A stretch of 47,500 nucleotides of DNA, from NCBI RefSeq assembly GCF_000091045.1, contig NC_006682.1, forward strand, positions 557,501 to 605,000, written 5' to 3'. The notes beneath the pieces are model-generated. The model did no database searches. It was not told the DNA's origin and was given only the letters and a program-made list of their open reading frames with translations. The DNA comes from Cryptococcus deneoformans JEC21 (taxonomy: Eukaryota > Basidiomycota > Tremellomycetes > Tremellales > Cryptococcaceae). Positions 8,511 through 42,344 of this stretch are shown in pieces (position 1 is the first letter of the stretch; each line of letters starts with the position of its first letter). A program made the position numbers and the translations under genes.

Positions 8511-10477
8511 CTACTCTTTTTGAACACTCATAACCTTGGCAATATTCCCTTCAAACTTCTCATCCGTGGAAACTTTTTCCTTCTGGTGCATATGGTGTCC
8601 CTTGGGCAAAGCGGCCCCTTCAACTGCGTTACCTTCAACGTCCTCGACCTTTACGACACCCTCGACTTCGTAATTAGTCTCATTTGCTGTCCAGAGGACA
8701 TATCCGCAAAGAGGGAGAGATACCAAGAGGATTATCCAGCTGACAAGATGCTCTGTGAGGAAAGGTGTGGCAACAGCGTCCATGCCAAAGGATACGGCAG
8801 CCCCGGCAGATTGAACACCCTTGTAGTAACCCGCCATACGGGCAAGCCTGAAAGGGTCGTTGGTGATACAGGACATGGTATAGTAGGCAAGACCTTGGAA
8901 AGCAGCGTCACCAATATAATCTGCCGATTGTCAGTCAACAACTTCTCACCAGAATGAGATACTTCACGTACAGCTCATAAGCAATATAATTGGTCCGGTA
9001 GCAGCTCCATCACTCCAGTCCCAGACTGCGTGGTCTGTGGAGCGAGTAAACTTGACTTGGAAAACCAACCCGCCGACCCAGATAACGATGTTGAGGACAA
9101 CCACTGTTAAACAGCCAACCATGGAACGCTTTCTTCTGGAGAGGGGAACACGGTCGAGGACTACGCCAATAAGAATAGCGCCAACGATGGCACCAAGCCC
9201 GGTAAGAAGGGAAACGAGTGCACGGGTACGACCGTTGAAAAGGAAAGCAGTGATGGCTCCTTGATAAGCATAGACTGCGATTCTGTCAGCTGAATGATCA
9301 AAAGCACAGGCACATGTCAACACACAGTAGTTGGAAGCAAAAAACATGGGGCTACGGCCAAAGTGAATTAGTTGCGGTTTTGCTATACCTATATAGCATA
9401 CTCACAAAAGCATAAGCATTCTCCAGTCCTTGAACATCTTGAGGAAGTGGCGAGCCTCTTCTTTAGGGCTAATGGCATCATCAAGCTTGACAATTGTACC
9501 ATCACCTCGCACAACAAGATCTATACCAAATTAGTCTATCTCCCCTGCGATACGAGATTGACAAGTACTCACGAGGAGGCAAGATAAGCCAACTGGTAGC
9601 AATTGCGGTCAACTGAATGATCATGAAAGCCAAATATACACCGGTTGAGACTGAAGGCAGTGTGCTATGGGCCTGAATTCCAAGAGCGATCGCAGCACCA
9701 ATCAAGGTACCCATTTGGAAAATGGACCAAAACAGAGAGAACGCTCGGCCCTTGTCCTTTTCCAACGAGTAGGACATCATGATGGAACCTTGGGCAGACC
9801 AGAGGAGGGCAGCGGTGACACCAAGAAGACCACCGGCAAGAATGAGGAACCACCTAGTACCATGCACTTGGAATGCCCAGAGCGCCTAAGCAATAGGTGA
9901 GCTTGGGGTAAATCTGATGGTTGGAGGATTAACCTACTCCGACATAGAGAGAATAACCTGTGGCACCAATAGAGAGTGTCAACCTTGGACCAAGGACGTT
10001 CTATAGGGTCAGGTTAAACATATGCTGTAAATCCCACTTCCAGTAATAGGACTCACATTGATGGAACCGGCAAAGATACCCATGATAGCAAAGACTCCGT
10101 AGAGCACGGCGTTCGCGGTATCTGATAGAGCTGTGTCTTGGGTACCACTGTAGTCGACAACATGGCAATCAGTCACTGTACTTCTTAATAGAAGCTTTCG
10201 AGACTTACCCAGCACCGAGGCCACTGACTGCACTGAACATGCCCACACTGCAGAAACATCTGTACGTGAATTGCTTCAGTTATCATCCCCCATCGCATGA
10301 CATGTTCCGCTGCCGTAACTTACACAAAACCGACAATGATTACTTGTGTCCAGGGCGAATTGTCTAATAACGTCAGTTGGTCAGTTTATTGACGTTTCCC
10401 CCCGGTACATTGAGGACAAAGAACTTACATCGAGCAGCGCCCACGCGCAGCTGAGAGAGACGGCTTAAGACAGTCAT
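8511..10477 (-). CDS. UNC93/DUF895-type MFS transporter
   Basis: Predicted 486-residue polytopic membrane protein with ten exons (minus): 10477-10429, 10363-10324, 10259-10209, 10147-10057, 10000-9938, 9885-9573, 9520-9406, 9351-9326, 9274-8972, 8920-8511. Family landmarks read in order: PWTQVIIVGFVCF opening the first membrane helix, SGLGAGGTQD, an MFS-like loop after helix 2, ALLWSAQGSIMMSY with KGRAFSLFW, the mid-protein PMFFASNYFYAYQGAITAF, and a basic cytoplasmic loop LDRVPLSRRKRS. About 11-12 hydrophobic segments are visible; the tail is hydrophilic and His/Lys-rich. The substrate cannot be read from sequence; fungal members are numerous and mostly uncharacterised. It is divergent from the oxidoreductase and lies near GlcNAc genes, which suggests a sugar or amino-sugar substrate (inference). 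One exon is only 26 nt. Confidence 0.88.
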
Positions 10478-11772
10478 ATTGGTACGACTTTGATAGTGTT
10501 GTAAACACAGGTGATCAGACGAGACTTTGAAGGTCGGCGATGGATTGTAAGACAGTGATAGTTGGAAAGGTGGATATAAATGGAGATATTGAAGCTACCA
10601 CTAGCTTGGGTTGTGTTGATAAGAGTCCTTTGGTCGCTGGAAAACAAACAAAAAGACCCTACAACGGGTAGATAATATATTCGAAAGAAGTCCCAAGAGA
10701 TCCTCCGCCACACAGATTTGCATACGGCTAGTGCACTTCAATGCCGGTCTTGCCCATGCGGGTCAAGGGCCAACGCACTTATCAGCTGATGAACTGTCTA
10801 CTATCTTTTTGTGAGCTAAAGAAAGGCATTTTGGGTTTGGTGCGTTATCCGCTGCTTAAAGACCCTGAACGAGCGGCAAGAGTCGTGTCTAGTGTCTTTC
10901 TCGGTGGAGATTGCGGAGTGTATCAGGAGGGGTGGGGGTACGAGATAGGAAATGCCGAGAGCTGGAGATAAGATCCTCTGTGTGGTTGGGGTCAACAAAG
11001 CATCATAAAGGATGGTGGCAAAGGATGTTTATCGTCGTCACCCCACTTCCATTATTTTCTCCTCCATAGGCAGATCCAGTCCCTGGTCAAAGATCTGCAC
11101 CGGTGGGCGAACCATCCCAGTAGAACTAATGCACACCGTATCATCCAGTGAACTTTGACGTGCGTCAGAGGCGCGGGGAAATCGGCGCGAATAATAACCA
11201 TATGGATTCCAGCCTTTTACGCACGCCTCGGCAGCCAACGGACTTCGACTGCTTCCCTTTCTGTCAGCCATCTGTGATCTGCTATCTGCTGCCATCTCTC
11301 GGCCTGGTCGGCGGGCTTTCTGCATTCTTCGTTCCTTTCCGTCCCAGTCGTTGTTCTCATTTTATTCTGGTCGGACTGCCCGATAACTCTTGTTCTGCGT
11401 TCTGGTGTTCGGCATGATCGGACATTAAAATACTTGTAGAAAGCAAGCCTCAAACTTGATTGGGAAGTCACCATCTTCTGCCCCCGCTGGGAGCAAAGCC
11501 GGTGACAAAGTGGGGGATGAGTAATAAGTAGTTAAAAAAAAGTGAACAACGGATATAGCCGAAAAAAATCGTTAGTGTGACAACAATGTAAATTGCAAGC
11601 CAGGTGATTGGGCGATTACTTATCCAACTAACAACCTCCCACCGCTTCGTTTGTGCACATATATGACAACATCTTTGCGCATTGAGAGATCCATAACATA
11701 TTCCCCTAGAATAAGATAAGGCCAAACACAACTATCGCCTTTAGTGATTAAAATATCGAAATCCAACGCGAC
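10478..11772. promoter_or_regulatory. Divergent promoter, transporter / oxidoreductase
   Basis: This 1.3-kb non-coding stretch separates two divergent start codons. Several short ORFs occur on both strands but none shows family similarity or a convincing splice pattern. It holds an inverted CGG triplet (see separate entry) close to the oxidoreductase. Confidence 0.5.
11550..11561. promoter_or_regulatory. CGG-N6-CCG inverted triplet
   Basis: The 12-mer CGGATATAGCCG is an inverted repeat of CGG with a 6-bp spacer. This is the classical half-site arrangement for dimeric Zn2Cys6 regulators. It lies about 210 bp upstream of the oxidoreductase start. A site this short can arise by chance, so the regulatory role is inference. 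Confidence 0.25.
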
Positions 11773-13706
11773 ATGACGGCTCAAGTTCGGACACTCCCCA
11801 CCGAATCCACATCTCTCTTCTCTCCAGCTGCTGTACTCACCGAAATAGATGAACCTGAGTTTAAGAGACCCAAAGTCAGCAACAGCGATTCTCTCCAGGA
11901 TCTGGCGGAATCTAAGACTACAAAACATGTGACTGTAGCTGTCATTGGCGCTGGTCAACGAGGTCTGGTACGTTTACATTAAAGTCTCGGCGTATAGGGC
12001 AAGAAGGTAAGAAACGCTGACTGGTTCGTTGTCGGTAAAGGTATACACTTCATACGCTCTTGAGCATCCTGAGCTGGTCAAGGTTGTTGCCGTAGCTGAA
12101 CCCCGTGCACACAGGCGAAAGGTCATGTCCCGTCTTCATTCGTGCGTCTCTCATCTCTCATTTCTTTCCCTTTCCGCTTTGAAGCTCACTCCTGCACCTA
12201 TCAGAGTACCTCCAGAGAACCAGTACGCCAGCTGGGAACCTCTCCTTGCCCGAGGCCGAATTGCCGACGCCCTACTCATTACTGTCCTTGACGATCTCCA
12301 CGCTGAGCTGGTAAGCGCTTTCGCACCCCTAGGCTACCACATACTATGCGAAAAGCCTATGGCAACCTCGGTACAAGATTGTGTGAAGATGGTGAAGGAG
12401 GTGGAACTGTCTGGAGCAGGAATTTTTGGGATTGGTCATGTTTTGAGGTATTCGCCGTATAATAGGGCTGTCAAGGAGGTTATTGATTCTGGAGTATTGG
12501 GGGAGATTGTGAACATCCAAGTGAGTTGGGAGATTATATTAGATGGGAATATTTTGATGAGAATGTGACTGTTATATCGATCCATTACAGCATATTGAGC
12601 CTGTAGGAAACGTATGTCGCCGAAATTGATCACTTGTCTAGCTCATGACTGATACTTTCTGGTAGCAACACTTTGCTCATAGCTTTGTTCGAGGCAACTG
12701 GAAGAAAGAGTCTGAATCCACTTTTGCTCTTATGGCCAAAAGCTGCCAGTAAATCCCATTCGCCTCTACATTTACCATTAAGCAGATAGCTGACATGGCA
12801 TCTATAGCGACCTTGATATCCTCTCATTCTATCTCTCCGGTCTTGAACCTCGGAAAGTTCATTCCTTCGGCTCTATACACCACTTCAAGAACTCGAAGAA
12901 ACCAGCGGAAGCGGGGGATGCTAAAAGGTGTTTAGAATGCGCGTTCGAAAAGGACTGTGTGTGGAGCGCAAAGAAAATCTATATTGATGGTTTAAAGGAT
13001 GAGGGACACAAGGTGAGACCTATTTTGCGAGCAGCAAAGCCAGGATGTGGTAAGAGCAGAGTTGACAAAGGACGGAAAGTGGGCTCAACACATTGTTGAT
13101 GCGGATGTTCTCGATATCGAAAACGTGACTGATGCGTTGAAGACTGGTCCTTTTGGCGTTTGTGTCTACGAAGCAGGTAATGATGTGGTGGACCATCAGG
13201 TAGTGAATATCGAATACGAAGGAGGAGTCACCGCGAGTATGACTATGGTTGCTTGTGAGTAATCGTCTCCTTGGGATCCAGCCCTGAGTTCGTCTTACAC
13301 GTTGATATGTAGTTACCGAGGCCATTTGTGATCGAGGTACTAGGATCCAGGGGACCAAAGGTGAACTGATCGGCAATATGGCTTCCTTTGTAAGCATGTG
13401 CCCTCACTCCTGCCTCCTACCATCATTAACAAAACCTTTTTGCATTGAAAGACTGTCTTCGATTTCCTCACTCGTACCAAAACTCAGCACACTCCCAAGT
13501 CGCTCCCAGGTAACCATGGTGGAGGCGACGCAGGTCTTTCAGAGACATTTTTTGAAGCTGTTAGCAAGTCTGATCAGAGCGTACTGGGTGTAACACCGGA
13601 AGAAGTATTGAATTCGCATTTACTTGCGTTTGCTGCTGAGCAGGCCAGAAAAGAGGGGAGGGTGGTAGATTTCGCAGAGTTTAAAGATAAGGCTATGGCG
13701 TATTAA
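11773..13706 (+). CDS. Gfo/Idh/MocA family NAD(P)-dependent oxidoreductase
   Basis: Predicted 481-residue enzyme with nine exons: 11773-11967, 12041-12141, 12205-12520, 12591-12611, 12666-12748, 12808-13012, 13062-13254, 13313-13389, 13452-13706. After a roughly 50-residue extension (with basic KRPK) the Rossmann start TVAVIGAGQRG appears, then ADALLITVLDDLHAE and the family-typical EKPMA. The C-terminal alpha/beta domain is recognisable by DIENVTDALKTGPFGVCVYE, DVVDHQVVNIEYEGG and HGGGDAGL. Such enzymes oxidise or reduce sugars, inositols or amino-sugar derivatives with NAD(P); the substrate here is unknown. Exon 4 is a 21-nt microexon. The junction 13013-13061 was chosen for its GTGAGA donor and frame, and is uncertain. 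Location beside GlcNAc genes suggests amino-sugar metabolism (inference). Confidence 0.88.
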
Positions 13707-15177
13707 AGGTAGTCGGCGAAAAATGATATGTGTACAATCTTAATTGTATTATTGTAAATGGGAATTTGCTAGTTTTGTATTGAATCTGATTGTATGGAAG
13801 AGAATCACAAATGAAACTTGAGTTGCAGCCAGTCCATACAGGGTTGAGAAACCTACAGTCCGTAAAAATAGAACAGTCAGCGACGTTTCTCACTTGACTG
13901 TATTCTCTCCTCCTCGCCCTCTCTCCTGGCATTACCACTGCCGCCGCTGATGTTGATTGCTTTGACCTATATTGACTATGATGAACGATCGTTCCTGTCG
14001 TTAAGACCATCCTAACCTCCCAAGCTGTTTTTGGCTCCGGCACCTACTGCCGTCTTTACTGCTCCTGCTGCTGGTTAGCACTCATGGCCATTATTTTATT
14101 GAACCACGGGATGATTATTCGTGCTTAAATTCCCCTTTTTTCTTTTCCCCCTCCGGGTTCTTTGAGGCCATTTCACATTCAGCTGCATATCTGCCCCTTC
14201 CGGCTGGTTATTGGCTCATGAGCCGAGCTTCTAATGAATGGAGTTTCGAGAACAAAAACAGAAACGGCTGCGGTGGACGACAAAAGGAAGGTGATCGAAC
14301 ACGGATCATACCGTTGCTGGATGTATATGAAACACCACACAGGAAGTGATCTACGTGTAGCGTAGCTCAAGGTATGAAATGTTCGATCGTGTCTTTGGCT
14401 ACCCCATTTTTTCCTGGCTCTTTTGCCTTCTGCCTCTTGCCCGGTCTCTGACATCCAGACCGCAGGAGAGCTGAAGAAGGGGCTGTCGTTAACTGCTACT
14501 AGTAGTAAGTGCTGACCTGCTCGAATTATTGGATGCACACAGACAGCAAAACCGGAAGTTAAACTTCTGCGTTGAATTCCAACAGCGAATGGATCTTTTT
14601 GCTTCTGTCAGTAAAAGGTGCCAAAAGTGATAAGCAATGCAGGACAACAATACAGATAAGCAATACAGGGCAACAATACGAATGCAAGCTTGGTGAGTCT
14701 TACCCTTTCTCCATTCTTCGCTCCTCCTTGAAATTCTGGGCCACTTATTGGACGGAATCAGATGCCATTAATTAGGTTTGGGAACGGAGCTGAAAGTTTC
14801 CCGTCCAGGGTAAGGGCCCCAAACCCCCAGGCACGATTTTCAGGGCGAAAATCCCAAGCCTCATGGATAAGGGGAGAGAAGTTTCCGGGTCTGGCGAGTC
14901 TTGTTATCAGCAGATGAGGTCGTCACATCTCCCATCGCATTCCTTGTTCTTCAGATCTTTGTCCGCATCCGCTTTTACATCTATATCTCATCCACACACG
15001 CTATCATCCCTGAAGGTTCAGACTTTCAAAAATCACTTGGAGAAGCCACAGCAAAGCCACACGAGGCAATCGGTTTTTTCCCTGCCTCAACTCGCCGGCT
15101 AATGTGGTTACGCACTTAATCTGTACTCTCTTTACTCACATCGGATCTCTCTAAACAGTCACTGGTGACAACCCGCC
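13707..15177. other. Intergenic, upstream of Zn2Cys6 regulator
   Basis: Nearly 1.5 kb without a supported gene lies between two plus-strand genes. The right part is pyrimidine-rich and probably holds the regulator's promoter and 5' leader. It contains one 26-bp tandem duplication (separate entry). Confidence 0.45.
14629..14680. repeat. 26-bp tandem duplication
   Basis: Two head-to-tail 26-bp copies (14629-14654 and 14655-14680) beginning GATAAGCAAT differ at only three positions. They lie about 500 bp upstream of the Zn2Cys6 gene. Confidence 0.8.
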
Positions 15178-18100
15178 ATGTCTCTACCCCAACGTCTACC
15201 CATTCTTACTCCACCGAACCATGGTCCACCCCCTCTTTCATCACACCCCGCCTCTGCTCCAATGCACCAAAGCCGAGGACATCACCAGCAGGCAATGTAC
15301 TTCCATTATCCCCAATCAGCGCATCCTTCCCAGTTTCATTATGTCCCTCCGCCACTTGTAGCTCCCGTACTAGAGACTCGCCCTTCCAATAGCCATCATA
15401 CCAATGGTAATAACGCTGATGGTGATACTCCATGGCTTACCAGGGACTTTCCTCCGAACAGCCATATGCACCACGCGGCTAGCCAGTCCCAGGCCGGAGG
15501 ACCTTCGCACCCGCATATCCCAAGACGCATGACGTATCAGCCATCGCCATCGGATCCAATGGTCGAGTATGATCAATGGAAATCAAGCAGACGAAATTCA
15601 CAGATCTCATCTGTGCCACCACGCTATCTAGAGCATGAACCGCATGGATGCGAAAAGGAGCGGGGACATAAGAATGAATTCTCACAGCCAGAGTCTTCTG
15701 CTGCTGAATCACAAATCAAGTGGCAAAAGAAGCGTCCTCGTACTACATCGATGTCCCAACACGAATCGATAATGAACACGACACAGCAAAGCAAACCGCC
15801 TCAACAGAGTGAACAAGGTTCGAGTACGGCAGAGAAACTGGTCTATCCTGCTGTTCTGACTAGAGAAAAGAAGCAAAAAGCGTGTGGTAACTGTCGAAAG
15901 GCAAAGTTAAAGTGCATGTTGGAGCCCGATGGGAATGTTTGCGTGAGATGCAAGGCGAGAAAAGAGAAATGCGCATTCTATCCGAAAGGCCATGTAGGTG
16001 TGCTAGATTCTGAACAGAGAGGAGTGTAGACTGACTGTTACTAGGACGAGGATTGGCAGCAAACTCTTCAGTCCGATTTGTACGCCGCCACCAACCATTT
16101 ATCCCAACTGTCAGCTGCTGTGAACCACATGCTCAGCCATCTCGTCTCTCAAAATATCATACCACCCTTTTCACCTCCTCTGAAACATTATGAACATCCA
16201 GACCGAGATGCTGTTCTTACCTATATGGAAAACACGAAAAAGAACTCAATGACGGAAGGGGGTTCTACGGAGGAAGGGACGAAGAAGAGTAAGAAAAGGA
16301 AGGGGTCAAAATCAGAGGACTCAGCCGAGGACGGCGGGAGTGTACCCTTGGCCAACAGCCCAGATGGGACGGACAAGCCCCAAAATTCGTCTTCATCAGA
16401 GATAACAGTTCCGCAACCTATGCAGTCCCACCCAGAGCAGTCTTCGCATGAGCTCCCAGATACCCTCTTCCCATCCTATTCCCCATCTGATATTATTCCA
16501 AACCAATCTCTTCCCTCTATCAGCAGTCAAATGTTCAGCCCAACTTCTTCTTCCGCCAGACTCGGACCTACGCAACAGTCTTTCAGTTTGCCACCCCTCC
16601 ATTCTGACTGTATGGCGACTGCTCAAGATCAAAGAGTCACGCCTACTTCCTTGCAGAACCATAGCCCCACTTCTGGCATCTCGTCCTCGCCACCTCAACC
16701 GACTCTACCTCAGTCAGACGATGCCCGTCAAATCACCTCGTCTGTCCCTCCTGAGTATGCAGGAGTAACACATGCACCTACTCAGGAAGAGTACGGACCA
16801 CAATCCCAGGGTGGTGGTTATGCACAGTCGGGTACACAGAGACATTTGACTTCTTCTTTACGCGATGAGCCGATAAAAGGTCAATATGAAGTGGAGGGGG
16901 AGTATGAAGATGAGAATGGGATGGAAATTGTTCTTGGATCGAAAGATCCTAGACAAGATATTATCAAAAAGAATATCGTGAAGAACAAGGATGCTTTGAT
17001 ACTCGTTAATTAGTAAATACCCCTCTTTTCTCACAAAATTTACTGGAAGCTAACAGCCATCTCAAGTTTCCACGGCCATCTGAGCAGTTTCCTCTATGGC
17101 TACCGCCTCCAATTCCGTAAATTCCCATACCTCGAAGGCGGCCCATCAACTATCACCCCGCTCATCCTCGCTGTCCTTTGCCTCATCTCCTCTGAGCGAT
17201 TCGCGATCCATCAACATTACCGTCTCCCTCTCATCGACGAAGTCCAAGCTCTACTAGGTACTTCACCCGCAGAGAGCTGGCAGAGTTTTGAAGGGGATCA
17301 GTCGAAAGGGTTTGGGGATGTGGAGGCAGATGATCCGTTAGATGCCGAATTTGGACTGGGACCAGAGGAGATTGTGGCGGCGTGTGTGTTGGCGACGTAT
17401 ATGGTGGATAGGAGGGAAGGGGCGCTGATTGCAAGGTTCGCGTTCAGATGGGCAAGGGGTTGGATCAGGGTGAGATTGTTTTTCTTTTGTTGTTCGGCCG
17501 AGATCTGATGGGAAGAGCTTCAGTTGTTGTCGTCGACGCCTCCAAGGGTGACGTTGGCTGAGACAGCAGGTTTTGTACCTCCTGAAAGACAAGCTACAGC
17601 ACAGGATATGGCCAGAGTCTGGCTTTTATGCTACGCAAGTATCATTTCACTGTGTATGGTGCGACTTTGTCTAATTTGTTATTTTATTTTATTTTCAGAT
17701 TGTCGACAGCACCGAGCGTCTTCAGTTTACCGATATCCCCGCTCCACTCTCACGTGATGCGTTATCCTACTGCAACCTCCTTATCCCCCCATCAACCTCT
17801 TATCAATCCCCCTTCTTCTCCCCTGGCTCTCCTCCCCGTCCTGAAGACGCCCCAGACCCACACGATATCCTTCTCACCTCTCACGCCAGACTCATGACCA
17901 TCCTAAACGAATGGAGACACCGCCTCGAACAAATCGACGTACCCGGTGCGAACCGCCAAGTGTATGTGGCGCAGTTGAAGAGGTTGGCGGGGAAAGTGAA
18001 TGGGGAGTTGGAGTGGTGGAATGCGGGGTATCAAGCGACGAAACCGTCGTATGTAAACGGTAATAATGGTGAAGAAGGAATAGGGGAAGGGAAGGGGTTA

Positions 18101-18668
18101 CGATGGAGATATACGGAAATGACGTGGCTGTTCGTCAAGATGCTTGTCAACTCTACCGTGTCTAAAGCCCTTTCCCCTTCTCCTGCCGTCGCTCCTCATA
18201 CTCGGCCACTCGTCCCTTCTGTTACATCTACATCCGCTTCGAATAATTCTACAACACTCTCAACCTCCGACTCTAAACTGCGCGAAGCCTCCATAGCGCT
18301 AGTGGTAGACTGTGCACTCGAGATTCTGGAGATGTGTGCGAGGTGGGTGCCGAGAGAGGAGATTACAAACTTTGGTCCGACGTATTTGTATTTCATAACG
18401 CTCGCGGGGAGCGAGCTGGTTTCTGCATTGGGTGATGGTGGAGGCGAAGGCGTTGTGTCGATTGATGAACGTAATTTCACCTTTTTTTAATACTTTCATG
18501 ACAAAAAGGGAATATTGCTAATGGCGACTAGTGATAACTTTGTTTAGGACCGTTGGAGAAGCCCTTTTCATGGGAGAGCTGCATGAGCAGCACGTAACGA
18601 GGATGACGGGAAAATCATTGTTCTACAACTGTGATCAACTGGGCATGATGAAGTCTTGGAGACAGTAG
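15178..18668 (+). CDS. Zn2Cys6 binuclear-cluster transcription factor
   Basis: Predicted 1068-residue nuclear regulator; exons 15178-15993, 16045-17012, 17067-17469, 17524-17634, 17699-18470, 18532-18668. The DNA-binding cluster is at residues 236-265 with spacing C-X2-C-X6-C-X8-C-X2-C-X6-C (CGNCRKAKLKC then CVRCKARKEKC), preceded by a 230-residue Pro/Ser/His/Gln-rich tail. A Leu/His-containing helix right after the cluster (DLYAATNHLSQLSAAVNHML) may serve as dimerisation linker. A KKSKKRKGSK run may be an NLS. The C-terminal half carries the fungal transcription factor middle homology region (NYFHGHLSSFLYGY, LAVLCLISSERF, RVWLLCYIVDSTERLQF). The intron after exon 4 is GC-AG. It sits between the oxidoreductase and the deacetylase, which makes it a candidate local regulator (inference). 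Confidence 0.9.
17635..17698 (+). other. GC-AG intron in Zn2Cys6 gene
   Basis: The donor reads GCAAGT and the acceptor TTTTCAG. Splicing here joins LLCY to IVDSTERLQF in phase, as expected for the fungal transcription factor domain. The nearby GT (in GCAAGTATC) would break the frame. Confidence 0.8.
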
Positions 18669-18838
18669 TTACAAAATATGAGAGGGATATGAGCCCCAGA
18701 TCTTTGCTGTGGCTGTATATCATGGTTCCTTCTTATCGCAGATAATTGTAATCATTTTATGTACTTGGTTGGCAAGCATGTTCATAATGTCAAGCTCGTA
18801 AATGTACCTGAAACCCCAGATTCAACAAGATTGATCTA

Positions 18839-20433
18839 CTATGGCCCATCTCCACGACCATCCACCCATCCTTCCCCATCCTTCCAAATTTCCTCACCCA
18901 TAATCCAAACGTCCTTAACATTCCCCTCCCAATCAAACACACATAAATCCGCATCAAACCCTTCTATCAACTGCCCCTTGCGCTTGGCCACTTCCCCTCC
19001 CAGACACTCTGCTGGGTGTTTGGTCGCACAGACAAGAGCCATGGGGAGCGAGATGGACGCGAATTTTGCGAGATTGTGAGCGAGTGGTGCGAGGGGTGCC
19101 GCGCTACCTGCCAAGGTAGAAGTGCCGTCCACAAGGACTTTGAGACCTTCTTTCCTAAACCGAAGTCCTGGTCGCCAGTCGATGACTCCATCTGGCTGCG
19201 AGGGGTCCATGATACTTTGCGCTAAAGTATGCCATTCAACGATCAGCAACAATTCCATATGATGATCAATCGAGGAGGTGATGAGGTGCTCACCATCCGA
19301 AACAAGGACACAACCCTCTTCACAAGCACCATAAGCGATTCGGACAGTATTGGGATGAGAATGTAAGCCGTCGACGATGATCCCAAAGTATGGGCGACGG
19401 TTAGGGTTGCCGAGCATGCCGACTACACCCGGATCACGATGATGGATTGGTGGCATGGCACTAGAGGGACGTCGTTAGTGTAGGAAGAAAGGGATGGAAA
19501 AAGTGTGAGGAGACACGTACTTGAACAAATGGGTAATCATGCGAGCGCCTTTGTCAAACGCTTCTTCGACTTGCTCTAATGAAGCGTCACTTACACGGAC
19601 CTTGTCAGTTATCTGCCACCAAACTTCTCTGGAAGGGATAATAGGGGCTCACCTATGCCCTACGGAAACCACAACTCCTCGTTCTACCAACGGTTCAATA
19701 CAATCCATAACCCCATCTACATCGGGTGCCAAGGTGATGATCTTTACACCTTGCTGATCGAGCCCTTCTTTACCGTAGACAATCTCGAGAGCTTTCATGG
19801 GTGAGGTATCCGACGCCCCAGGGGGGAATATGGGAGAGGTGGAGGAGGCGGTCAATAGGAGGGTTGAAGAATGGGCGCCTTTACGGATAGGGGAAAGGAA
19901 AGGGCCTTCGGCGTGGTAACCTAGGATATGGGAGGAGCCAGGAGGGGAGCGCGGGCAAAGAAGTCGAAGAAGCTACTCAATGTCAATAGCCACATGTAAC
20001 AAAATATCTTGGGGCTCACTTTGCTATAAAGCTCTTGATGCTGAGTGATGATGGTCGGCACAAAACTTGTGGTTCCATATTGCGCCAACCTCCTCGCTAC
20101 CCTCTCCAGCCCCTTGATATACTTTTTCTCGCCCTCTTCCCCTGCTTGAACATCCAGCTCTGAAAAGTCTACGCGCCAAGCACCGTTGATCTGAATATCG
20201 ATCAAGCCTGGCGAGAGAAGATTGCCTTGCAAGTCGACTGTCCGACATGGGGAGTGGTTGGAATAGAAGGAGGATTGGCCGGAGATGATCTTGCCAGAGG
20301 AAGATGAGATGTAAAGGTCTGCTTTGACGGCCTACAGAGTGTGAGAAGAAGAGCGCATGGAATGTGATGGAGCACATACTGTGCCGTCTGGCATTGCCAA
20401 GTAGCCATTGGTGAACCTGACTATATCCGACAT
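18839..20433 (-). CDS. N-acetylglucosamine-6-phosphate deacetylase
   Basis: Predicted 434-residue amidohydrolase that removes acetate from GlcNAc-6-phosphate to give glucosamine-6-phosphate, normally cytosolic. Exons (minus): 20433-20380, 20331-20020, 19972-19653, 19589-19521, 19460-19294, 19221-18839. NagA-family landmarks: LLSPGLIDIQINGAWRVDFS in the first strand region; GYHAEGPFLSP with metal-ligand Glu144; SVGHSDA with His228; MITHLFNAMPPIHHRDPG with His249; CVLVSDA with the catalytic Asp307; and VDGTSTLAGSA. Length is close to the family's 380-430. It is divergent from the GlcNAc kinase across a 1.17-kb shared promoter, so the two consecutive steps of GlcNAc use are paired. In Candida albicans the equivalent gene is DAC1/NAG2. 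It has the same overall exon style as its neighbours and no broken motif. Confidence 0.95.
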
Positions 20434-21603
20434 GGCTGGCAGCTGCGATCACTACTAGTCAAGACGTGGGCACCCTTCTATATATACGATGTGCGTACTT
20501 CTGGCCAGGAAACCAAACAAAGGACGAACGAACAAAGGTGAAAATGTCGACCAGGCGCCGATCTGTTCTACCAGAAGGACAACAGTGAAGCCAAGAAACC
20601 AGAGAAAAGGCCGAAGGCTGGAAAAGCGTCATAACCATCCACGCATCTTTCAGGTCCCATCACACACCGTCTTCGGGCAAATCGCCGCGCGCAATCGACA
20701 GGCCGCTCTTACGGCACGCACCATTCTGCGTGTGGGCACCGGGGAAAACGCCGGAGCGGTAACTGGATGAGGTAAAAGAATTCTCCCAAATCGCACGGTG
20801 GTGAGTCGCCAGGGTTGGTACGCCGATGTGTGCGAGATCGTAGCGAACACCAAACTATGCATGCATGCATGCGTCCATAGGGAACGTGGGCGGTAAATCT
20901 GGCCTAACTCAAGATAGGCGTTGTCGGGATGCATGGATACTCGACAGAGTTCACTGAGGGACTGGACGACTGGAAAGAAGACGAATCAGACTCCTGCTGT
21001 CGTTACCCGCTCTCAGGTGACAGAGGCACACCGTGGTCGGATTAAGTTGCCCTGTTTGAAGTTTGACAGACGTATAAATCCATTCATATCTTTCTTCCAT
21101 CTTGTATTCATCCGAAGATTTCTCACAATCCATCTCCACAGCTTGTGGTCTTGCTGCACTCCACTGCAGGTCCGATAAAAGCCAAAAAAAGCAACCAAAA
21201 CGCCACTAACCAAAGGAATCTACCATCCTTTGTGTGATCGACCCGCTGTATCTCCTCTTGCAATTCCGTCCCTGGTCCCTCCCAGATTACCAAAAAAAGA
21301 AAGACAAAGTAAAAAGGAGCATCGCTTGCACCTTGGCACCATTGTCCATTTGCTTGTCAGTACCTGCACTTCAGAGATCCGTCGGCCAATTAGCGACGAG
21401 GGAAGCCAGCCAGCAAGCAACGAATCAGACGACAGACCAGCATCGCTCCAGAAGCCTACACCCTCATACACCGACATTGCACTCACACACACACTTACGA
21501 GGGCTAGCCGGTGATTCAACGTCAACGGAATCAACAGTCAACAGTCCTCAGATCATCTAGTTATTTATTTTTCAGTTAAGTCGAAAGCAAGATCTATATA
21601 ACA
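20434..21603. promoter_or_regulatory. Divergent promoter, GlcNAc-6-P deacetylase / GlcNAc kinase
   Basis: This 1,170-bp non-coding region separates the two start codons. It contains a CGG-N8-CCG inverted triplet (20740-20753), an (ATGC)4 run at 20857-20872 and another ATGCAT at 20929-20934. The 100 bp before the kinase start are AT-rich. The arrangement fits co-regulation of both genes. Confidence 0.55.
20740..20753. promoter_or_regulatory. CGG-N8-CCG inverted triplet
   Basis: The 14-mer CGGGGAAAACGCCG is an inverted CGG repeat with an 8-bp spacer, a possible Zn2Cys6 site, inside the divergent GlcNAc promoter. It may be fortuitous. Confidence 0.22.
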
Positions 21604-23444
21604 ATGTTGCAAGAGAATGGAAGTGGTTTAGTATCCGATCAACCAACCGTCACTGGCGATCAGGTATCAGACGTCGCTATGCCTACCAGGCTGCCCACTC
21701 CACCAGCTTCACCCACTGTCCCACAGCTCATCCTCTGTGCTGATGGAGGGGGTTCCAAGGTGTGTGTGGTGGTTAGGAGTGCGGATGGGTTAGAGGTCAG
21801 AGGCACTGCTGGGCCCTGTAATGTGTGAGTTATTACACTAATATCACTATCGCAAGAACTGAGCAACTCTCTAGTCAAAGTGTTGGGTATGCAGCGGCTA
21901 CTCAGTCACTCCTTTTGGCCACCTATCGTGCCCTTGCCCAACTACCTCGCTCTCACATCCCACACAACCTCCTCATGCCCTCGATTGACCTTTCTGACAG
22001 CACGCGTTCATCTCCTCAACTTCAAGCCGTCCCCATGATACTCAAAAACCAACTGCCCTCACCACCTTCTTCCATTGGTTCAAAATCTGTGGTGATTCAT
22101 AATCTTCCATCTGTCATGAACAACCTCACACTCGAACCGCCTTCTGCTTCTTCTTCCTTCTCCTCTTCCTCTTCCCTCCCCCCTTCATCATCGCCTTCTA
22201 CAACCCATTCGTCTCCCACGTCAATCCCCTTGACGCACCTCTCGTCATACCCGACCTTGACGGACAAATCAATATCCACGCCAAACCCAGGCAACCCCAC
22301 CCCTCGCACGCGCTTACCGCCCCTTAGTGTACCGATCTTTCAATACGCGTGGCTGGCGTTGGCTGGAATATCGTGCAAGGCAGATGAACAAGCTTTTGCA
22401 AAGGTCGTCTGTGGAGTCTTGGGTTTAGATATGGAACGGCTCAAAGTTACGAATGGTAGGTTCCCATAGCGTTTCAAGATCTTTTTTATGACGCAGCTGA
22501 TACGTGTGTGGAAAGATGTAAACCTCTTGGCGGCACCAGCACTCGACCTTCCGGACATAGACCATGTAATTGCACTTGTCGCTGGGACAGGGACGGTAGG
22601 ACGGGCGATCAAAGTTGGCGATAAGAAGCGAGGGTTGCCTCTGGAAGATGTTGCCATGTCCCGAGGTTGGGGTTATTTGTGAGTGATTTATTTTTTTGCT
22701 ATTCTTAGTAAAACTCAATAAATGTGCTGACTGTGATGCAGATTATGCGATGAAGGATCGGCATTTTGGATCGGTCGGTTAGCTATTAGAGCCCTTTTAT
22801 CTCTTTCCGACCGCCATGCTTCATCGGGCATCTATTCCTCCCCTCCACCGCCTTTCCTGCCCCTTCACAACGACCTCCTAGCATACTTTGGAACGTCCAA
22901 CCCCCTCGACTTGATCAACGTCGCATCGCTCACTGCGTCAGGGATGGCAGAGCCTACCGAAAGTGTGGGCGAAGCGACGAGCCGGAGGAACGCTTTACTA
23001 GCAGGTGCAGCGAGGGTGGTGTTCAAACACGCTTTCCCAGGGGATGTTAGTCCCCGCCCAGGATTCCTTACGCCGCCACGCAGTACAGATGGAGGTGCTG
23101 ATATGGATGAGGATCATGAAAGCACGTCGAGTCCTCGACAGCCGGAAGAGTTGAAGCACGATGGTATTTTGGATCACGCGTCCCACCTTGAAGCACTCGG
23201 TATCGCACGTCAGGCAGCCGCGCCGCTTATTACGCTTACACTCTCGCTCCTTGGCGACCGCACAATCGTCAGACCTGAAAGGTCAGCGTTAACACTTGGA
23301 GGCGGGCTGATGATGAGCGAGGGATACAGAGAGATGCTCTTGGATGGATTGAAGAAGGAGGGAGTGAGCTTTGGACGGGTGATGGTGGTGGGTGACGCTG
23401 CTGGTGAAGGGGCCCAGGCTCTTGGTAGAGTTGAGTTTGAGTGA
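21604..23444 (+). CDS. N-acetylglucosamine kinase, BadF/BadG-type ASKHA fold
   Basis: Predicted 555-residue ATP-dependent sugar kinase that would phosphorylate GlcNAc to GlcNAc-6-phosphate. Exons: 21604-21824, 21875-22455, 22516-22678, 22742-23444. ASKHA motifs: phosphate-1 loop LCADGGGSK (residues about 44-52), GPCNVQSVG, a TND step with candidate catalytic Asp268 (its codon is split by intron 2), phosphate-2 loop LVAGTGTV (to residue 295), DEGSAFWIGRLAIRAL, and the adenosine region LTLGGGL near the C-terminus. Typical NAGK is about 340 residues. The excess is a Ser/Pro-rich insertion of roughly 120 residues (about 105-225) inside the first lobe plus a 45-residue N-terminal tail, both probably disordered. 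The stop is 0.4 kb before the next gene. Many ascomycetes use a hexokinase-like enzyme for this step instead. Confidence 0.9.
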
Positions 23445-32724: not shown

Positions 32725-35700
32725 ATGACCTCGGCGCTCCTACCCACTGGCCAGACTCTTAAAGGTTCCGCAATAATGTCCCAAGACTTTAGCATCTATC
32801 GCGAGCCTGCAGATTACCATCATTCCCGTCTGCGTGACAACATTAGCACAGGTGGAAGCCATTATGCACGTTCTGCGTCGCACGCTTACTCGGAGCCGGC
32901 TTCGTCACAAAACTTTGCAAATTCCTCACCGTCACCGTATCCGGCGCAGTATAGAACTCCGGAGGAGTATATCGCGACGCCAGATAGTACAGTTCCAATA
33001 CAGCAACAACAACAAGCCGTGTATAGCAGACAGGCGCAAGCCCAAGCCCAACAGCAGCAACAGATGTACCAGCAACAGGTCTATGCTCAATCTGGTCACC
33101 CCTTGTCATCGCAGGTCGCCGGTCCGTCATCATATAGAAAACCGTCAGCAAACAGTGTTCCGTCTTCATCGACAATACCGGAATACCGTGACGGGCAAGC
33201 TTCAGGAAACATGTCAATAATACAAGGTGTCAATGGCCATGGAGGAGTTGAGAGACGGGATAGGGGGAATCGAATGACTGATCCTGATGCGGAAAACGAT
33301 GGGCGGGTCGGAGTAGAAGACCCTCGTAAGTTCTTCTTAACGTTGGGTATTCGGCTTTGGCTGATGAGCATTAAGGGGCCGATCGAGTGTACACTGAACT
33401 CAAGTGCTTGGGTGACGGATCGTTTGGGACAGTTTGGTTGTGTGATTGGCATTCACCTGTAAAGCCTGATGTCTTACTATCAGCCATGCAGTGTGGAGCC
33501 GGAGCGAGACCGGAATGGTCAGGAAAGAGGCTAGTCGCATTGAAGAGAATGAAGAGGGTTTGGGAGGGTGGTTGGACTCAGGCTAAGAGTTTAGGGGAAT
33601 TAGTAGTGAGTGTTTCTGGCGGCATGGGTGTTTCAAATATATCTGACGAGATTCAGTCCCTACGGAATATCCCACCCCATCCCGCTATCATCCCATTATA
33701 CGACGCTTTCATCTCCCCCAAATCCCGCGAGCTCTACTTTGTCTTTGAGTGTATGGAAGGCAACCTTTATCAGCTGACGAAATCTCGTCGAGGACGACCA
33801 CTAGCTGCCGGCCTCATCGCTTCCTGTTTTCACCAAATATCCTCTGGCTTATACCACATTCACGGACATGGCTATTTCCATCGAGATATGAAGCCTGAAA
33901 ATCTGTTAATAACGACAACAGGACTGGCAGATTATCTTACGGCTGAAGCTTTGGCGGAAATCAACATGGCTGGAGGAGATATCAACCGAGTAGGAGACTT
34001 GGCGTACGAAAAGGACGTCTCTGTAATCGTCAAGCTTGCCGATTTCGGTCTCGCCCGTGCGACAAACTCCAAACCGCCTTACACCGAATATGTCTCGACA
34101 CGATGGTATCGTGCGCCAGAAGTACTCCTTAGGTCATCAGAATACGGTCCTCCCGTAGACATGTGGGCTTTAGGAACAATTTTGGCAGAGATGTTGAATC
34201 TCAAACCATTGTTCCCGGGAGTGAGCGAGATTGATCAGGTCTATAGGATCTGTGACACGATGGGAGACCCAAGCTCCGAGTATGGAGTGGATGAGAGAGG
34301 GATGACTATCGGTGGTGGCCCATGGAATTCGGGTATCAAGTTGGCCAAGAATGTTGGATTTTCCTTCCCCAAGGTGAGTAAAATTAACAGGTCTTTTGAC
34401 CTGGACAGTTGCTAACAGTAGCAGCGAAAACCGGTGAGATTCCGAAGTCTCTTCAATGACAGCGTCCCTCAGTCACTAGTCGACTGTATCGCCGATCTCT
34501 TACGGTATAATCCTAAATATCGTATGACTGCCGCGCAATGTATCGATCACCCATACTTTCACGAAACACTTCCTCACCTTCAGCAAACTCTGCCTCTACC
34601 TCGAATACCCTTTTCCGCTGGTCAACCCCCGCCACATGCCATCCCGCGCCCCACTCTCTCCACTGTCCCTATGCCTCCACCACCAGATGTTTCAGTGCCT
34701 GCACGAAAGTTACCCCCTTCGCATGCCCACACACCTCGCGAGGCCAGACCCGCTTTTGCCAACGGCGATATCCGTACTCTTCCGCCACCGATTGGTACAC
34801 CCGACAGCCAAGCTTCGTCACAGCGAGCGTTTTTCCCTCAGCACATCCCGCCCCATGTTTCTTCCTCTTCACTTGTCCATCAACTCCGAGAACTCGACTT
34901 GCCAACGGACGATCTTGGGAGTTATGGTCAACGTCCCCCGGAAGCCGCAGCTGCCGACGCCAGAGCGGCGCAGTATGCGCAATCCCCGGTGCAGCTCCAC
35001 CAGTGGGTTGGAGACTTGCAGATTGATTCTCGTAAACCGTCGGCAGCTCAGTCTATGATGTATGACAGTTCAGTGACTGAAGAGTCTCAGGGCGGGAGAT
35101 CGAACCAGTCTCTACCCAATTATTCCAATGTCTCGCTGGAACAGCAGCCACAAGTTCAGGTCCCACCGCAATCTGGGCAATCCGCTCAATCCTATGGCAG
35201 GTCCAACATCAGCGTCGCTGCGTACGTGCAGCAACAACAGCGCTATGCCCAAGAAGCGCCCGCACAGCAAGTGACTGCTCCCGCGGCACCACCTCCTATT
35301 GAGCCAACTGTTGGTGCGGCACGAGCTGAAAAGTTGGGTGTGACGAGCAAGAAGAAAAAATGGGGTTTGAGCTCAGTGTTCGGTGGTGCCGATAAGAGTA
35401 CTGCCAGCTTGGCGGCTGTTGATGAGCATGAGTACAGTGGAACTTCACTCAAACGGACCCAGTCGGGTCACAGGACTATCGACAGGAATCCGTCTGTTGC
35501 AGGATCATCTCTTACTCTGGGTGTTCCCGCTCTGGGCATGAACTCGAGTGCTGGTGCGTCTAGCATATCGGTCCTGGATGATCCGAAGAAGGCGAAGAAG
35601 GAAGCCGAGAGGCAGGCCAAGGAGTTGGCGAAGGCTCAACGTGAAGCGGCGGCATTGAAGCAGAAAGAAAGGGCGAGGGCGGTCATGCAGAAGCGAAACC

Positions 35701-40770: not shown

Positions 40771-41985
40771 ATGGGCTTCTTCAAACGCAAAAACGCCCCG
40801 CTCATCCCGCCCGTCGCGCCCACCGCCGGCCAGCAGCCCAACGCCGACCCGTATGCGGCCCCAGCTGCAGGCGGGTACGGCGGCGGGGACCCGTATACCA
40901 AGTCGAAACCGAGGCCGGCCGCTGGCGAGTCCACCGAAAAGGGCGGCGGCGACCCGTACGCAGCCACGCCGGTATACGCAGCAGGCGGCGACCCGTACGC
41001 CAAACGCAACCCGGGCCCACGAGCGAACCCGAACGCCGCCAACGACGCCGCCCGGGCCGAGCTCTTTGGCGGGTACAAGGCGGCAGACGTGCCTGCTGAG
41101 CGCAAGTACGGGTACGAAGGGCGGGAGATGGAGGAGGATTTCGACGAGGACGAGGAGATTGAGGGGATCAAGCAGGAGATGAGGGGCGTGAAGCAGGACA
41201 GTCTGGCGAGTACGAGGTGCGTCTCCGGGTTTCCGGTGGGCATCGACTGATACCATCGCAGGAATGCAGTGGCGCTGGCGAGGCAGGCTGAAGAGTCGGC
41301 GAGGGGCACGATCGGCAAGCTCGCTGACCAGTCTGGTGAGTCGTCGTCTCGTCGTCGACAGGACACACAGAGTGACGCCCGGCAGAACGTATCGCCAACT
41401 CGGAGCGATACCTCGACATGGCCAAAGCCAACAACCAGCGTGCAGAAGACAAGACGACAGAGCTGAAAGTGCTCAGCAGAAGCATCTTCCGTCCCGCCAT
41501 CGTCTGGAACAAGGTATGCATCTTTGCTATTGTGTGTGGGCATATATATAAACACGGCACAGGAATCCAAACGGCAGGCGCAGGAAGACAAGATCAACGA
41601 GCGCCACGCCATGGAACGTATGGACCGCGCCAAAGCGCTCATGGACGTCCAGGACACCCGCAAACGACTCGGTGCAGCTGCCAACCCGTCGCCACACGCC
41701 TCGTCGCCCGCACCCGAGCCCATGCCGGGCCAGCAGAGGGCGCGCAAAGACGCGCGCTCGCGGTACCAGTTTGACGCCACCGCCTCGGACGACGAGCTGG
41801 AAGATGAGCTGGACGAGAACCTGGACGAGACGCTCGAGGTGACGAGGCGCCTGAAGGGGCTCGCGACGGCGATGGGAGACGAGGTGTCGGGCCAGAACTC
41901 GAGACTGACGAGGGTGACGGACAAGACGGAGAACTTGGAGTTTGCGGTGATGAAGAATACGGAGAGGCTGAGCAGGATCAGGTAG
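40771..41985 (+). CDS. SEC9: Plasma-membrane t-SNARE Sec9/SNAP-25 family (Qbc)
   Basis: Predicted 356-residue Qbc SNARE for fusion of secretory vesicles with the plasma membrane. Exons: 40771-41216, 41262-41335, 41386-41513, 41563-41985. The N-terminal ~135 residues are Gly/Pro/Ala/Tyr-rich with repeated GGDPYA steps. The Qb SNARE helix runs from about residue 145 to 216 with zero-layer Gln172 (LADQSERIANSERYLDMAKA). A linker with KRQAQEDKINERHAMERM follows. The Qc helix occupies the last ~65 residues with zero-layer Gln327 (MGDEVSGQNSRL). There is no transmembrane segment and no Cys palmitoylation cluster, as in yeast Sec9. The frame is open upstream of the chosen start and contains further in-frame ATGs created by ATGCAT motifs, but MGFFKRKNA is the expected family start. 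Confidence 0.93.
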
Positions 41986-42021
41986 GGTATTATTGTATAG
42001 TGTATCATGTAAATGTTTTGT

Positions 42022-42056
42022 GTTGTTGTTGTTGTTGCTGTTGTTGTTGCTGTTGT

Positions 42057-42146
<90 letters not shown>

Positions 42147-42227
42147 CGTCATCGTCGCCGTCGTTGTCACCGCCATCGCCGCCGCCATCGCCGCCGCCAT
42201 CGCCGCCGCCATCGTCCGCGCCATCGT
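42022..42227. repeat. Compound microsatellite (GTT/GCT)n-(GCTGTC)14-(GCCGCCGCCATC)3
   Basis: A three-part simple repeat: imperfect GTT/GCT triplets (42022-42060), fourteen perfect GCTGTC hexamers (42061-42144), degenerate units, then three GCCGCCGCCATC dodecamers (42178-42213). It fills most of the 359-bp gap between SEC9 and the arrestin gene. It has long stop-free frames on both strands, which I regard as artefacts of the repeat. Confidence 0.95.
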
Positions 42228-42344
42228 GTTCCGCGCCGCGCCAGACTTTCCACTTTCCATCTCATCTCATCCACCATCTCATCCCCATCTCATCCCCATC
42301 TCATCTCCACAGGGAAGCACCAGACACGCGTGACAGACCGCCCA

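Follow-up and report, generated by a model that had tools for sequence, protein, structure and literature searches.

A probable GlcNAc utilization cluster with a Gfo/Idh/MocA oxidoreductase and a candidate Zn2Cys6 regulator in Cryptococcus deneoformans

Introduction

Work on N-acetylglucosamine (GlcNAc) signalling has mostly been done in ascomycetes, where the model rests on RON1/Rep1 and a hexokinase-type kinase. A locus of Cryptococcus deneoformans JEC21 raises the question whether a basidiomycete yeast uses other components. Here, a GlcNAc kinase gene and a GlcNAc-6-phosphate (GlcNAc-6-P) deacetylase gene, physically linked as in fungal GlcNAc catabolic gene clusters, lie beside genes for a transporter, a Gfo/Idh/MocA oxidoreductase, and a candidate Zn2Cys6 protein. 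We asked whether these neighbors belong to one utilization pathway.

Results

Gene content of the locus

We analyzed a window of 47,500 nucleotides (NC_006682.1, positions 557,501 to 605,000) and built intron-exon models for all five genes, each an uninterrupted reading frame from its ATG to its stop codon once the GT-AG introns are removed; the remainder of the window was inspected through its reading frames. The complete models place all five genes where the initial annotation had located them and confirm its two divergent pairs, transporter/oxidoreductase and deacetylase/kinase. In window coordinates, the features are as follows.

8511..10477, minus strand: UNC93/DUF895-type major facilitator transporter (10 exons, 486 aa)
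10478..11772, no strand: transporter-oxidoreductase divergent promoter (1295 bp)
11174..11187, plus strand: motif CGGGSAAANCGSCG as CGGGGAAATCGGCG, in the transporter-oxidoreductase promoter
11773..13706, plus strand: Gfo/Idh/MocA oxidoreductase (9 exons, 481 aa)
15178..18668, plus strand: candidate Zn2Cys6 transcription factor (6 exons, 1076 aa, model TF_f)
18839..20433, minus strand: GlcNAc-6-P deacetylase (6 exons, 434 aa)
20434..21603, no strand: deacetylase-kinase divergent promoter (1170 bp, two motif copies)
20674..20687, plus strand: motif CGGGSAAANCGSCG as CGGGCAAATCGCCG, in the deacetylase-kinase promoter
20740..20753, plus strand: motif CGGGSAAANCGSCG as CGGGGAAAACGCCG, in the deacetylase-kinase promoter
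21604..23444, plus strand: BadF/NAGK-type GlcNAc kinase (4 exons, 555 aa, low-complexity insert)

Core enzymes and transporter

The deacetylase matched Amidohydro_1 in Pfam (48.1 bits), and its best solved match was the GlcNAc-6-P deacetylase 7nut, which we take to be human AMDHD2 (223 bits over residues 4 to 421, a full-length homology). Against TIGR00221 it scored 212.9 bits, just below the NCBI cut-off of 225.65. Judging by gene order, it would be Dac1 (CNAG_06190). The kinase, taken as a single sequence, fell below the Pfam BadF cut-off (22.3 versus 31.5), while its family profile matched a MurNAc/GlcNAc kinase (2.2e-12) and NAGK 2ch5 (8.7e-7), the solved-structure matches being 2e2n, 8zo3, 2ch5, and 2ch6; several relatives among the matches listed carry the name N-acetyl-D-glucosamine kinase. 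The proposed GlcNAc kinase thus stands at the level of the family profile, as a BadF/NAGK type, and not at that of the single sequence. These profile matches also agree with the view that it differs from the hexokinase-like kinase of known fungal clusters, and the Hexokinase_1 matches found in the genome lie at two other loci, on C2 and C8. Its position suggests that it is the gene called Hxk3 (CNAG_06191), though it is not hexokinase-like.

The transporter matched UNC-93 (PF05978) with 77.5 bits against a cut-off of 22.9, and also PF07690. The initial annotation had treated it as an alternative to Ngt1, which our comparison did not bear out: by gene order it would itself be the Ngt1 of the Cryptococcus literature (CNAG_06186 in C. 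neoformans).

As had been reported, the window holds no glucosamine-6-P deaminase, but there is one on the cluster's own contig (C13:315622-316516), separated from the cluster's nearer end by some 250 kb; it was found with TIGR00502 and matched 1ne7 at 350 bits. The sole locus matched by PF01182, C4:919152-919913, reads as a 6-phosphogluconolactonase (motif read by eye) and was rejected. Since the PF01182 search missed the true deaminase, exon-wise searches can miss genes. The transporter and the oxidoreductase, each the only match of its family found by such a genome search, are therefore only weakly indicated to be single.

The oxidoreductase

In Pfam, the oxidoreductase matched GFO_IDH_MocA (63.5 bits) and two C-terminal domains. 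We used the fold predicted for its C. neoformans ortholog P0048 (mean pLDDT 80.4, residues 1 to 49 poor). By Pfam, alignment, and this fold, the Rossmann domain, the EKP lysine, the C-terminal domain, and the overall fold are those of the Gfo/Idh/MocA family. The EKP lysine, a CHD motif, and the three cysteines of a CxxC-x5-C pattern are invariant in 16 aligned fungal relatives. In structural comparison, many sugar dehydrogenases and NAD-dependent glycosidases tied at the top, and the substrate is therefore not readable from the predicted P0048 fold. A profile search of solved structures gave the sialic acid oxidoreductases YjhC and RgNanOx among the nearest relatives, and GH109 (2ixa) as a weak profile match. 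YjhC and RgNanOx share superfamily and fold with the fungal protein, with 19 to 22% identity in structural alignment to the predicted fold. According to the parts of PMC7535918 and PMC7315737 available to us, both regenerate N-acetylneuraminate from anhydro forms, RgNanOx working via a keto step.

The candidate regulator and the promoter motif

Seven variants of the regulator's last intron were tried, of which two stay open; one of these was chosen (TF_f). In this model all six cysteines are present with the spacing CxxCx6C followed by CxxCx6C, the pattern of the zinc cluster. The Zn_clus domain scored 14.5 bits, under the Pfam cut-off of 21, and PUT3 and GAL4 were weak matches among solved structures; beyond such weak zinc-cluster matches, Pfam and the PDB gave no named relative. 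The Zn2Cys6 assignment made earlier is hence carried by the cysteines and the PUT3/GAL4 matches, with the domain score falling short. The counterpart by gene order, CNAG_06188, appears under GO "regulation" terms, and the protein is probably the local regulator of the cluster. A genome search with the Ndt80 profile (PF05224) found no match, but the control search likewise matched nowhere.

The 14-bp, CGG-containing motif CGGGSAAANCGSCG was derived by eye from the same promoters in which it was then counted. It has five sites in the 19-Mb genome, against two for a reversed-pattern control. Four of the five lie in the promoters of transporter/oxidoreductase, deacetylase/kinase, and the distant deaminase, and the fifth within a long coding frame. 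The score of the real four-site motif, devised after the double site had been seen and thus partly post hoc, was reached by none of 500 shuffled sets and by 20 of 500 natural segments, nearly all on simple repeats. With a simpler score based on three sites, 4 of 300 shuffles did as well as the real set, as did an AT-rich word; alone this score is not convincing. The motif is absent from the regulator's own upstream region, even with one mismatch allowed, and was not found at the GH20 locus; CGG/CCG triplets are not enriched in the cluster promoters. We consider CGGGSAAANCGSCG a likely, putative site of the Zn2Cys6 protein.

Linkage across fungi

We read linkage from locus tags and shared contigs, recognized by their equal lengths, using the best 47 kinase, 120 oxidoreductase, and 120 transporter matches. 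Among the matches listed, one contig carries both kinase and oxidoreductase in 8 of the 9 species that could be compared, at a distance of 3 to 5 gene numbers in the four with ordered tags. For transporter and oxidoreductase on one contig, the count across Tremellomycetes and Ascomycota is also 8 of 9 comparable species (adjacent gene numbers in 4/5), and none of nine Agaricomycetes has them paired. The pair is also linked in some Sordariomycetes, for which the matches listed include no kinase of this type, and in Vanrija, whose kinase gene sits on a separate contig. Kinase and transporter are unlinked among these matches in three Cutaneotrichosporon species and in Vanrija albida.

The distribution is patchy. 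For twelve of the 14 Kwoniella species with a kinase, the best 120 oxidoreductase matches and the best 120 transporter matches contain no entry. Among the matches listed, Tremella mesenterica and C. depauperatus have the transporter and no oxidoreductase, Cryptotrichosporon argae has the reverse, many ascomycetes have just one of the two, and four species have two oxidoreductase copies, the second located on a different contig or numbered in a different tag series. By gene counts, the regulator would likewise keep its linkage with the core genes in several further Tremellomycetes. Conserved synteny beyond close relatives, on which the initial annotation had made its cluster depend, was thus found in other genera, and together with the gene families it supports the amino-sugar cluster. 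Membership of the oxidoreductase is backed by linkage and promoter motif; that of the regulator would follow from linkage.

With Agaricomycetes taken as the outgroup, Ascomycota nest within Tremellomycetes in all four oxidoreductase and transporter trees, whose sequences were chosen among the best 120 matches. For the careful transporter tree, P0229 and seven ascomycete and three agaricomycete sequences were dropped (59 to 48), and for the careful oxidoreductase tree P0092, two smut sequences, and the chytrid (51 to 47). In two trees, Tremellomycetes formed one clade in 0% of 200 bootstrap trees, and holding them together was not rejected (p-AU 0.278 and 0.198). By these sequences, horizontal transfer of the pair is suggestive only.

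Bacterial relatives of the oxidoreductase

Three of 30 bacterial loci with oxidoreductase relatives (L138, L141, and L145) hold an AgaS-type SIS protein, a BadF kinase, a tagatose-type aldolase, and a PfkB kinase within 7 kb, with NagA in L145; this set is missing from the other 27. In control loci, BadF or SIS occurred in 0 of 76 and NagA in 1 of 76. A Pfam scan of 142 of 166 neighbor proteins, from a list in which the oxidoreductase frame is present in 25 of 28 loci (the galactosamine-set count used 30), gave ABC permeases, ROK (3 of 52), GH20 (2 of 68), and much housekeeping, with no single dominant partner among the 25 commonest families listed. Compared with the aga-type GalNAc operons in the available part of PMC3668189, these loci and the fungal cluster have in common the BadF kinase and the oxidoreductase relative, and in L145 the NagA-type deacetylase; the operons differ in their AgaS-type isomerase, tagatose-6-P-type kinase and aldolase, and, in L145, ABC transporter parts.

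Discussion

The core of this cluster is not new. The portion of PMC10218983 available to us credits Nag1, Ngt1, Dac1, and Hxk3 to Ye et al. 2022 as the C. deneoformans GlcNAc pathway and describes these four core genes as a co-expressed and clustered utilization pathway. By gene order, Ngt1, Dac1, and Hxk3 would be the transporter, deacetylase, and kinase described here, and Nag1 the same-chromosome deaminase; neither the Zn2Cys6 gene nor the oxidoreductase is one of these four. In the accessible text of PMC4950302, the Trichoderma reesei cluster comprises hxk3, dac1, dam1, ngt1, nag3, and ron1, and thus resembles ours in its chemical route and in keeping kinase, deacetylase, and a transcription factor gene close together. 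However, T. reesei has a hexokinase-type kinase, the Ndt80-type RON1, and a GH3 gene, whereas Cryptococcus has a BadF/NAGK kinase, a Zn2Cys6 protein, a Gfo/Idh/MocA enzyme, and an unlinked deaminase. Candida albicans, as far as covered by the same text and PMC2636803, likewise has clustered kinase and deacetylase and an MFS GlcNAc permease (Ngt1), but its kinase is hexokinase-like and its deaminase lies within the NAG cluster.

We favor, with a probability of about 0.65, a Tremellomycetes GlcNAc utilization cluster of which the oxidoreductase is a functional member and the Zn2Cys6 protein the probable local regulator. The UNC93-type permease (Ngt1) would import GlcNAc, the BadF/NAGK-type kinase would convert it to GlcNAc-6-P, the NagA-type deacetylase would yield glucosamine-6-P, and the unlinked deaminase fructose-6-P. 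A related N-acetylhexosamine may enter through the same permease and, itself or as a derivative, be turned into the kinase's substrate by the NAD-using Gfo/Idh/MocA enzyme, whose reaction and substrate we infer. The Zn2Cys6 protein would act via the 14-bp motif in the three enzyme/transporter promoters.

It is rather unlikely that transporter, kinase, and deacetylase alone serve GlcNAc, with the oxidoreductase and Zn2Cys6 gene nearby through shared promoters or chance. The four genes credited in the available text of PMC10218983 would fit this, as would the motif-free regulator promoter and the kinase and transporter of Tremella and C. depauperatus, with no oxidoreductase among the matches listed. 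Textbook GlcNAc breakdown, too, has no oxidoreductase step. Yet the oxidoreductase shares a motif-bearing promoter, stays linked to the transporter in Vanrija and some Sordariomycetes apart from any listed linked kinase, and has bacterial relatives in amino-sugar operons (3/30 loci). Those galactosamine-type operons, the closeness of YjhC and RgNanOx by profile, and the NAD-dependent glycoside hydrolases at the top of the fold comparison would suit a substrate other than free GlcNAc: a different N-acetylhexosamine, or such a sugar in anhydro or glycosidic form. The oxidoreductase would then be the entry step, and the GlcNAc enzymes would finish. We find this improbable: many other sugar dehydrogenases tie with those structural matches, and the fungus has a true NagB deaminase whose promoter carries the motif as well, which points to the glucosamine route.

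Least probable is that kinase and deacetylase mainly recycle internal chitin or glycoprotein GlcNAc. In animals, salvage is a known role of NAGK-type kinases, 7nut is the nearest solved match of the deacetylase, and most Kwoniella species listed retain the kinase with no UNC93 transporter among the matches listed, but kinase and deacetylase are clustered with a permease and, in the available part of PMC10218983, the four genes are co-expressed as a utilization pathway.

What looks new is the linkage of the oxidoreductase and, by our reasoning, of the Zn2Cys6 regulator to the core genes in several other Tremellomycetes; the transporter-oxidoreductase pairing kept in some Sordariomycetes and in none of nine Agaricomycetes among the matches listed; CGGGSAAANCGSCG as common to cluster and deaminase promoters; and bacterial oxidoreductase relatives within N-acetylgalactosamine-type operons (3 of 30 loci). 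A bolder and doubtful extension is that in basidiomycete yeasts the uptake of amino sugars is controlled via CGGGSAAANCGSCG by a Zn2Cys6 regulator of its own and not by RON1/Ndt80, and that permease and NAD-recycling oxidoreductase might form a mobile two-gene module, lost jointly in most Kwoniella, passed linked between Tremellomycetes and Sordariomycetes, and feeding several N-acetylhexosamines through one permease into the GlcNAc route.

Overall, this basidiomycete cluster departs from the ascomycete model in its kinase family and in the class of its candidate regulator. With its short, defined motif and its unexplained oxidoreductase, it offers simple tests of pathway rewiring, and through the enzyme pair the use of amino sugars by fungi would gain a step that has no assignment yet.

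Layout and identity of the cluster genes

The amino-sugar cluster at window positions 8511 to 23444 is real, and its core is already published. After splicing, all five genes could be read from start to stop in our rebuilt gene models, and the five genes and two divergent pairs stand as the initial annotation had them:

Transporter (UNC93/DUF895 type), minus strand, divergent from the oxidoreductase, with a promoter of 1295 bp between them
Oxidoreductase (Gfo/Idh/MocA type), plus strand
Zn2Cys6 gene, plus strand, between oxidoreductase and deacetylase
Deacetylase (NagA type), minus strand, divergent from the kinase, with a promoter of 1170 bp between them
Kinase (BadF/NAGK type), plus strand

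Among the matches listed, the closest relatives of the kinase, oxidoreductase, and transporter were Cryptococcus neoformans proteins (89%, 93%, and 95% identity, respectively). PMC10218983, citing Ye et al. 2022, gives the GlcNAc pathway of this species as CNAG_06098 (Nag1), CNAG_06186 (Ngt1), CNAG_06190 (Dac1), and CNAG_06191 (Hxk3), and describes the four genes as clustered and co-expressed, with Dac1 adjoining Hxk3. PMC6687208 places CNAG_06188 among genes under regulation GO terms. By matching gene order, we infer that the transporter corresponds to 06186, the oxidoreductase to 06187, the Zn2Cys6 gene to 06188, the deacetylase to 06190, and the kinase to 06191, 06189 being without counterpart. 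Given this gene order and the published CNAG numbers, the transporter, initially presented as an alternative to Ngt1, is therefore most likely Ngt1 itself. Among the papers that our literature search covered, none could be identified as dealing with a GlcNAc role of either the oxidoreductase or the Zn2Cys6 gene; Ye et al. 2022 may cover them.

The deacetylase matched the solved GlcNAc-6-P deacetylase 7nut at 223 bits along almost its entire length, and its sequence clearly identifies it as this enzyme. The kinase is divergent, carries a low-complexity insert, and fell below the Pfam cut-off as a single sequence. A family profile of 13 aligned relatives matched the hexokinase 2e2n, the MurNAc/GlcNAc kinase 8zo3, and NAGK (2ch5/2ch6), and several of the listed relatives bear the name N-acetyl-D-glucosamine kinase. 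Two Hexokinase_1 loci were found in the genome, both away from the cluster.

The deaminase lies on the same contig as the cluster (C13:315622-316516), about 250 kb from its near end and 260 kb from the deacetylase. The 286-aa model matches Glucosamine-6-phosphate isomerase 1ne7 at 350 bits. A genome search with PF01182 overlooked this gene; the sole locus it returned, C4:919152-919913, was rejected as a deaminase, as it reads as a 6-phosphogluconolactonase.

Elsewhere in the window, an exon of a CMGC-type protein kinase was read by eye at 33375-34415, outside the cluster, and a long hexanucleotide-like repeat at 41808-42551 has frames open on both strands (RC, SL, TA, and DS pair runs).

Relatives of the oxidoreductase

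All 16 aligned fungal relatives of the oxidoreductase share the EKP lysine, a CHD motif, and three cysteines without variation, and a genome search found one copy and one weak match. A profile comparison ranks YjhC, glucose-fructose oxidoreductase, and RgNanOx as the nearest relatives of solved structure. For the C. neoformans ortholog, the predicted fold matched several groups equally well, among them NAD-dependent glycoside hydrolases as well as YjhC and RgNanOx. According to PMC7535918 and PMC7315737, YjhC and RgNanOx regenerate N-acetylneuraminate out of anhydro forms, the RgNanOx reaction passing through a keto intermediate with recycling of NAD (PMC7535918).

In one bacterial phylum, 22 of 398 genomes held a relative at 1e-70. 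Three of 30 bacterial loci (L138, L141, and L145) were operons with an AgaS-type SIS protein, a BadF kinase, a tagatose-type aldolase, and a LacC/PfkB-type kinase, and NagA scored above its cut-off in one of these three galactosamine-type operons. According to PMC3668189, AgaS was proposed and assayed as the enzyme that serves as galactosamine-6-P deaminase/isomerase in the GalNAc pathway of E. coli. At control loci with other members of the superfamily, BadF or SIS occurred within 7 kb in 0/76 and NagA in 1/76, a rough contrast since these loci come from other bacterial groups than the tested ones. Because bacterial relatives of the fungal oxidoreductase are contained in such GalNAc-pathway-like operons, the analogy supports a role on N-acetylhexosamines, without naming a reaction. 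At another locus (L027, 5654-9197), the gene for a clostridial relative immediately follows one for a GH94 phosphorylase; upstream is a frame that looks GH20-like when read by eye and had no Pfam match.

A candidate operator in the promoters

By reading three promoters, the two divergent ones of the cluster and the deaminase upstream region, we saw a shared pattern:

CGGGSAAANCGSCG, 11174, transporter/oxidoreductase promoter, one copy
CGGGSAAANCGSCG, 20674 and 20740, deacetylase/kinase promoter, two copies
CGGGSAAANCGSCG, 213 bp from the deaminase ATG, upstream, one copy

Across 19,051,922 bases on 14 contigs, the exact pattern, which was derived from the very promoter sites it scores, occurred at 5 sites versus 2 for the reversed control, the fifth lying within a long coding frame on contig C1. 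With up to one mismatch there were 90 sites versus 60, and therefore just the exact form stands out. Because the pattern had been picked from these same sites, sets of 14-mers were scored blind. With three sites, 4 of 300 shuffles equaled the real score; with four sites, none of 500 shuffles did, and 20 of 500 natural triples did, nearly all of them simple repeats. The pattern is likely, but not proven, to be a genuine shared motif. Its two CGG-like halves would suit the candidate Zn2Cys6 regulator, and we regard it as a candidate operator of the cluster. The promoter of the Zn2Cys6 gene itself lacks the motif, and the promoters that carry it show no enrichment of simple CGG/CCG triplets.

Linkage and patchiness in other fungi

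Synteny was assessed from locus tags and contigs of equal size (taken as the same contig) in protein listings, comprising 47 kinase matches and the best 120 each for oxidoreductase and transporter, with comparisons kept within one strain and annotation version of a species. Among the matches listed, kinase and oxidoreductase shared a contig in 8 of 9 comparable species: Kwoniella newhampshirensis, K. shandongensis, Cryptococcus sp. DSM 104548, C. wingfieldii, Naematelia, Kockovaella, Cryptotrichosporon argae, and, at a distance not given by the tags, Cutaneotrichosporon oleaginosum; they were on separate contigs in Vanrija albida. The tag gap was 3, 3, 4, and 5 in the four species with ordered tags, and 3 in the window. 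Exactly two genes separate the pair in both linked Kwoniella species; because this gap equals that of the window, the regulator would have its place there too. Kinase and transporter shared a contig in 4 of 8 species among the matches listed (K. newhampshirensis, Tremella, Naematelia, and Kockovaella, the others being Vanrija albida and three Cutaneotrichosporon). The initial annotation had named a lack of synteny outside close relatives among the grounds against its proposal; the same-contig linkage found in other genera shows that such synteny exists.

Oxidoreductase and transporter shared a contig in 8 of 9 comparable Tremellomycetes and Ascomycota among the matches listed (K. newhampshirensis, Naematelia, Kockovaella, Vanrija albida, Sarocladium strictum, Cordyceps javanica, Mariannaea, and Coniochaeta; separate in C. 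oleaginosum), and in 0 of 9 Agaricomycetes. Their tags were consecutive in K. newhampshirensis (001259/001260), Vanrija (007668/007669), Sarocladium (4744/4743), and Cordyceps (010135/010136), and 8 apart in Coniochaeta. For the pairs with consecutive tags in Sarocladium (P0067/P0206), Cordyceps (P0090/P0216), and Vanrija albida (P0075/P0233), no kinase linkage was seen. The pair may form a module of its own. In the trees of both genes, the ascomycete copies are nested among Tremellomycetes. Taken with the retained pairing, this nesting hints that the two genes may have been transferred together; a topology test did not reject an ordinary history for either gene.

In 12 of 14 kinase-bearing Kwoniella species, neither oxidoreductase nor transporter was among the best 120 matches, although far less similar proteins appear there, as though the two genes had disappeared jointly or had both never been acquired. 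This joint absence fits a module, but the species are related to one another and the count covers the best 120 matches for each gene. Also among the matches listed, Tremella mesenterica and C. depauperatus have the transporter without the oxidoreductase, Cryptotrichosporon argae has the reverse, and many ascomycetes have just one of the two. A second oxidoreductase lies on a separate contig in K. newhampshirensis, Naematelia, and Cryptotrichosporon argae, and in a different tag series in K. shandongensis. Given this scattered presence and absence, the cluster, as judged from these sequences, is linked in several genera yet patchy. The oxidoreductase and the Zn2Cys6 gene are probably two overlooked members of it.
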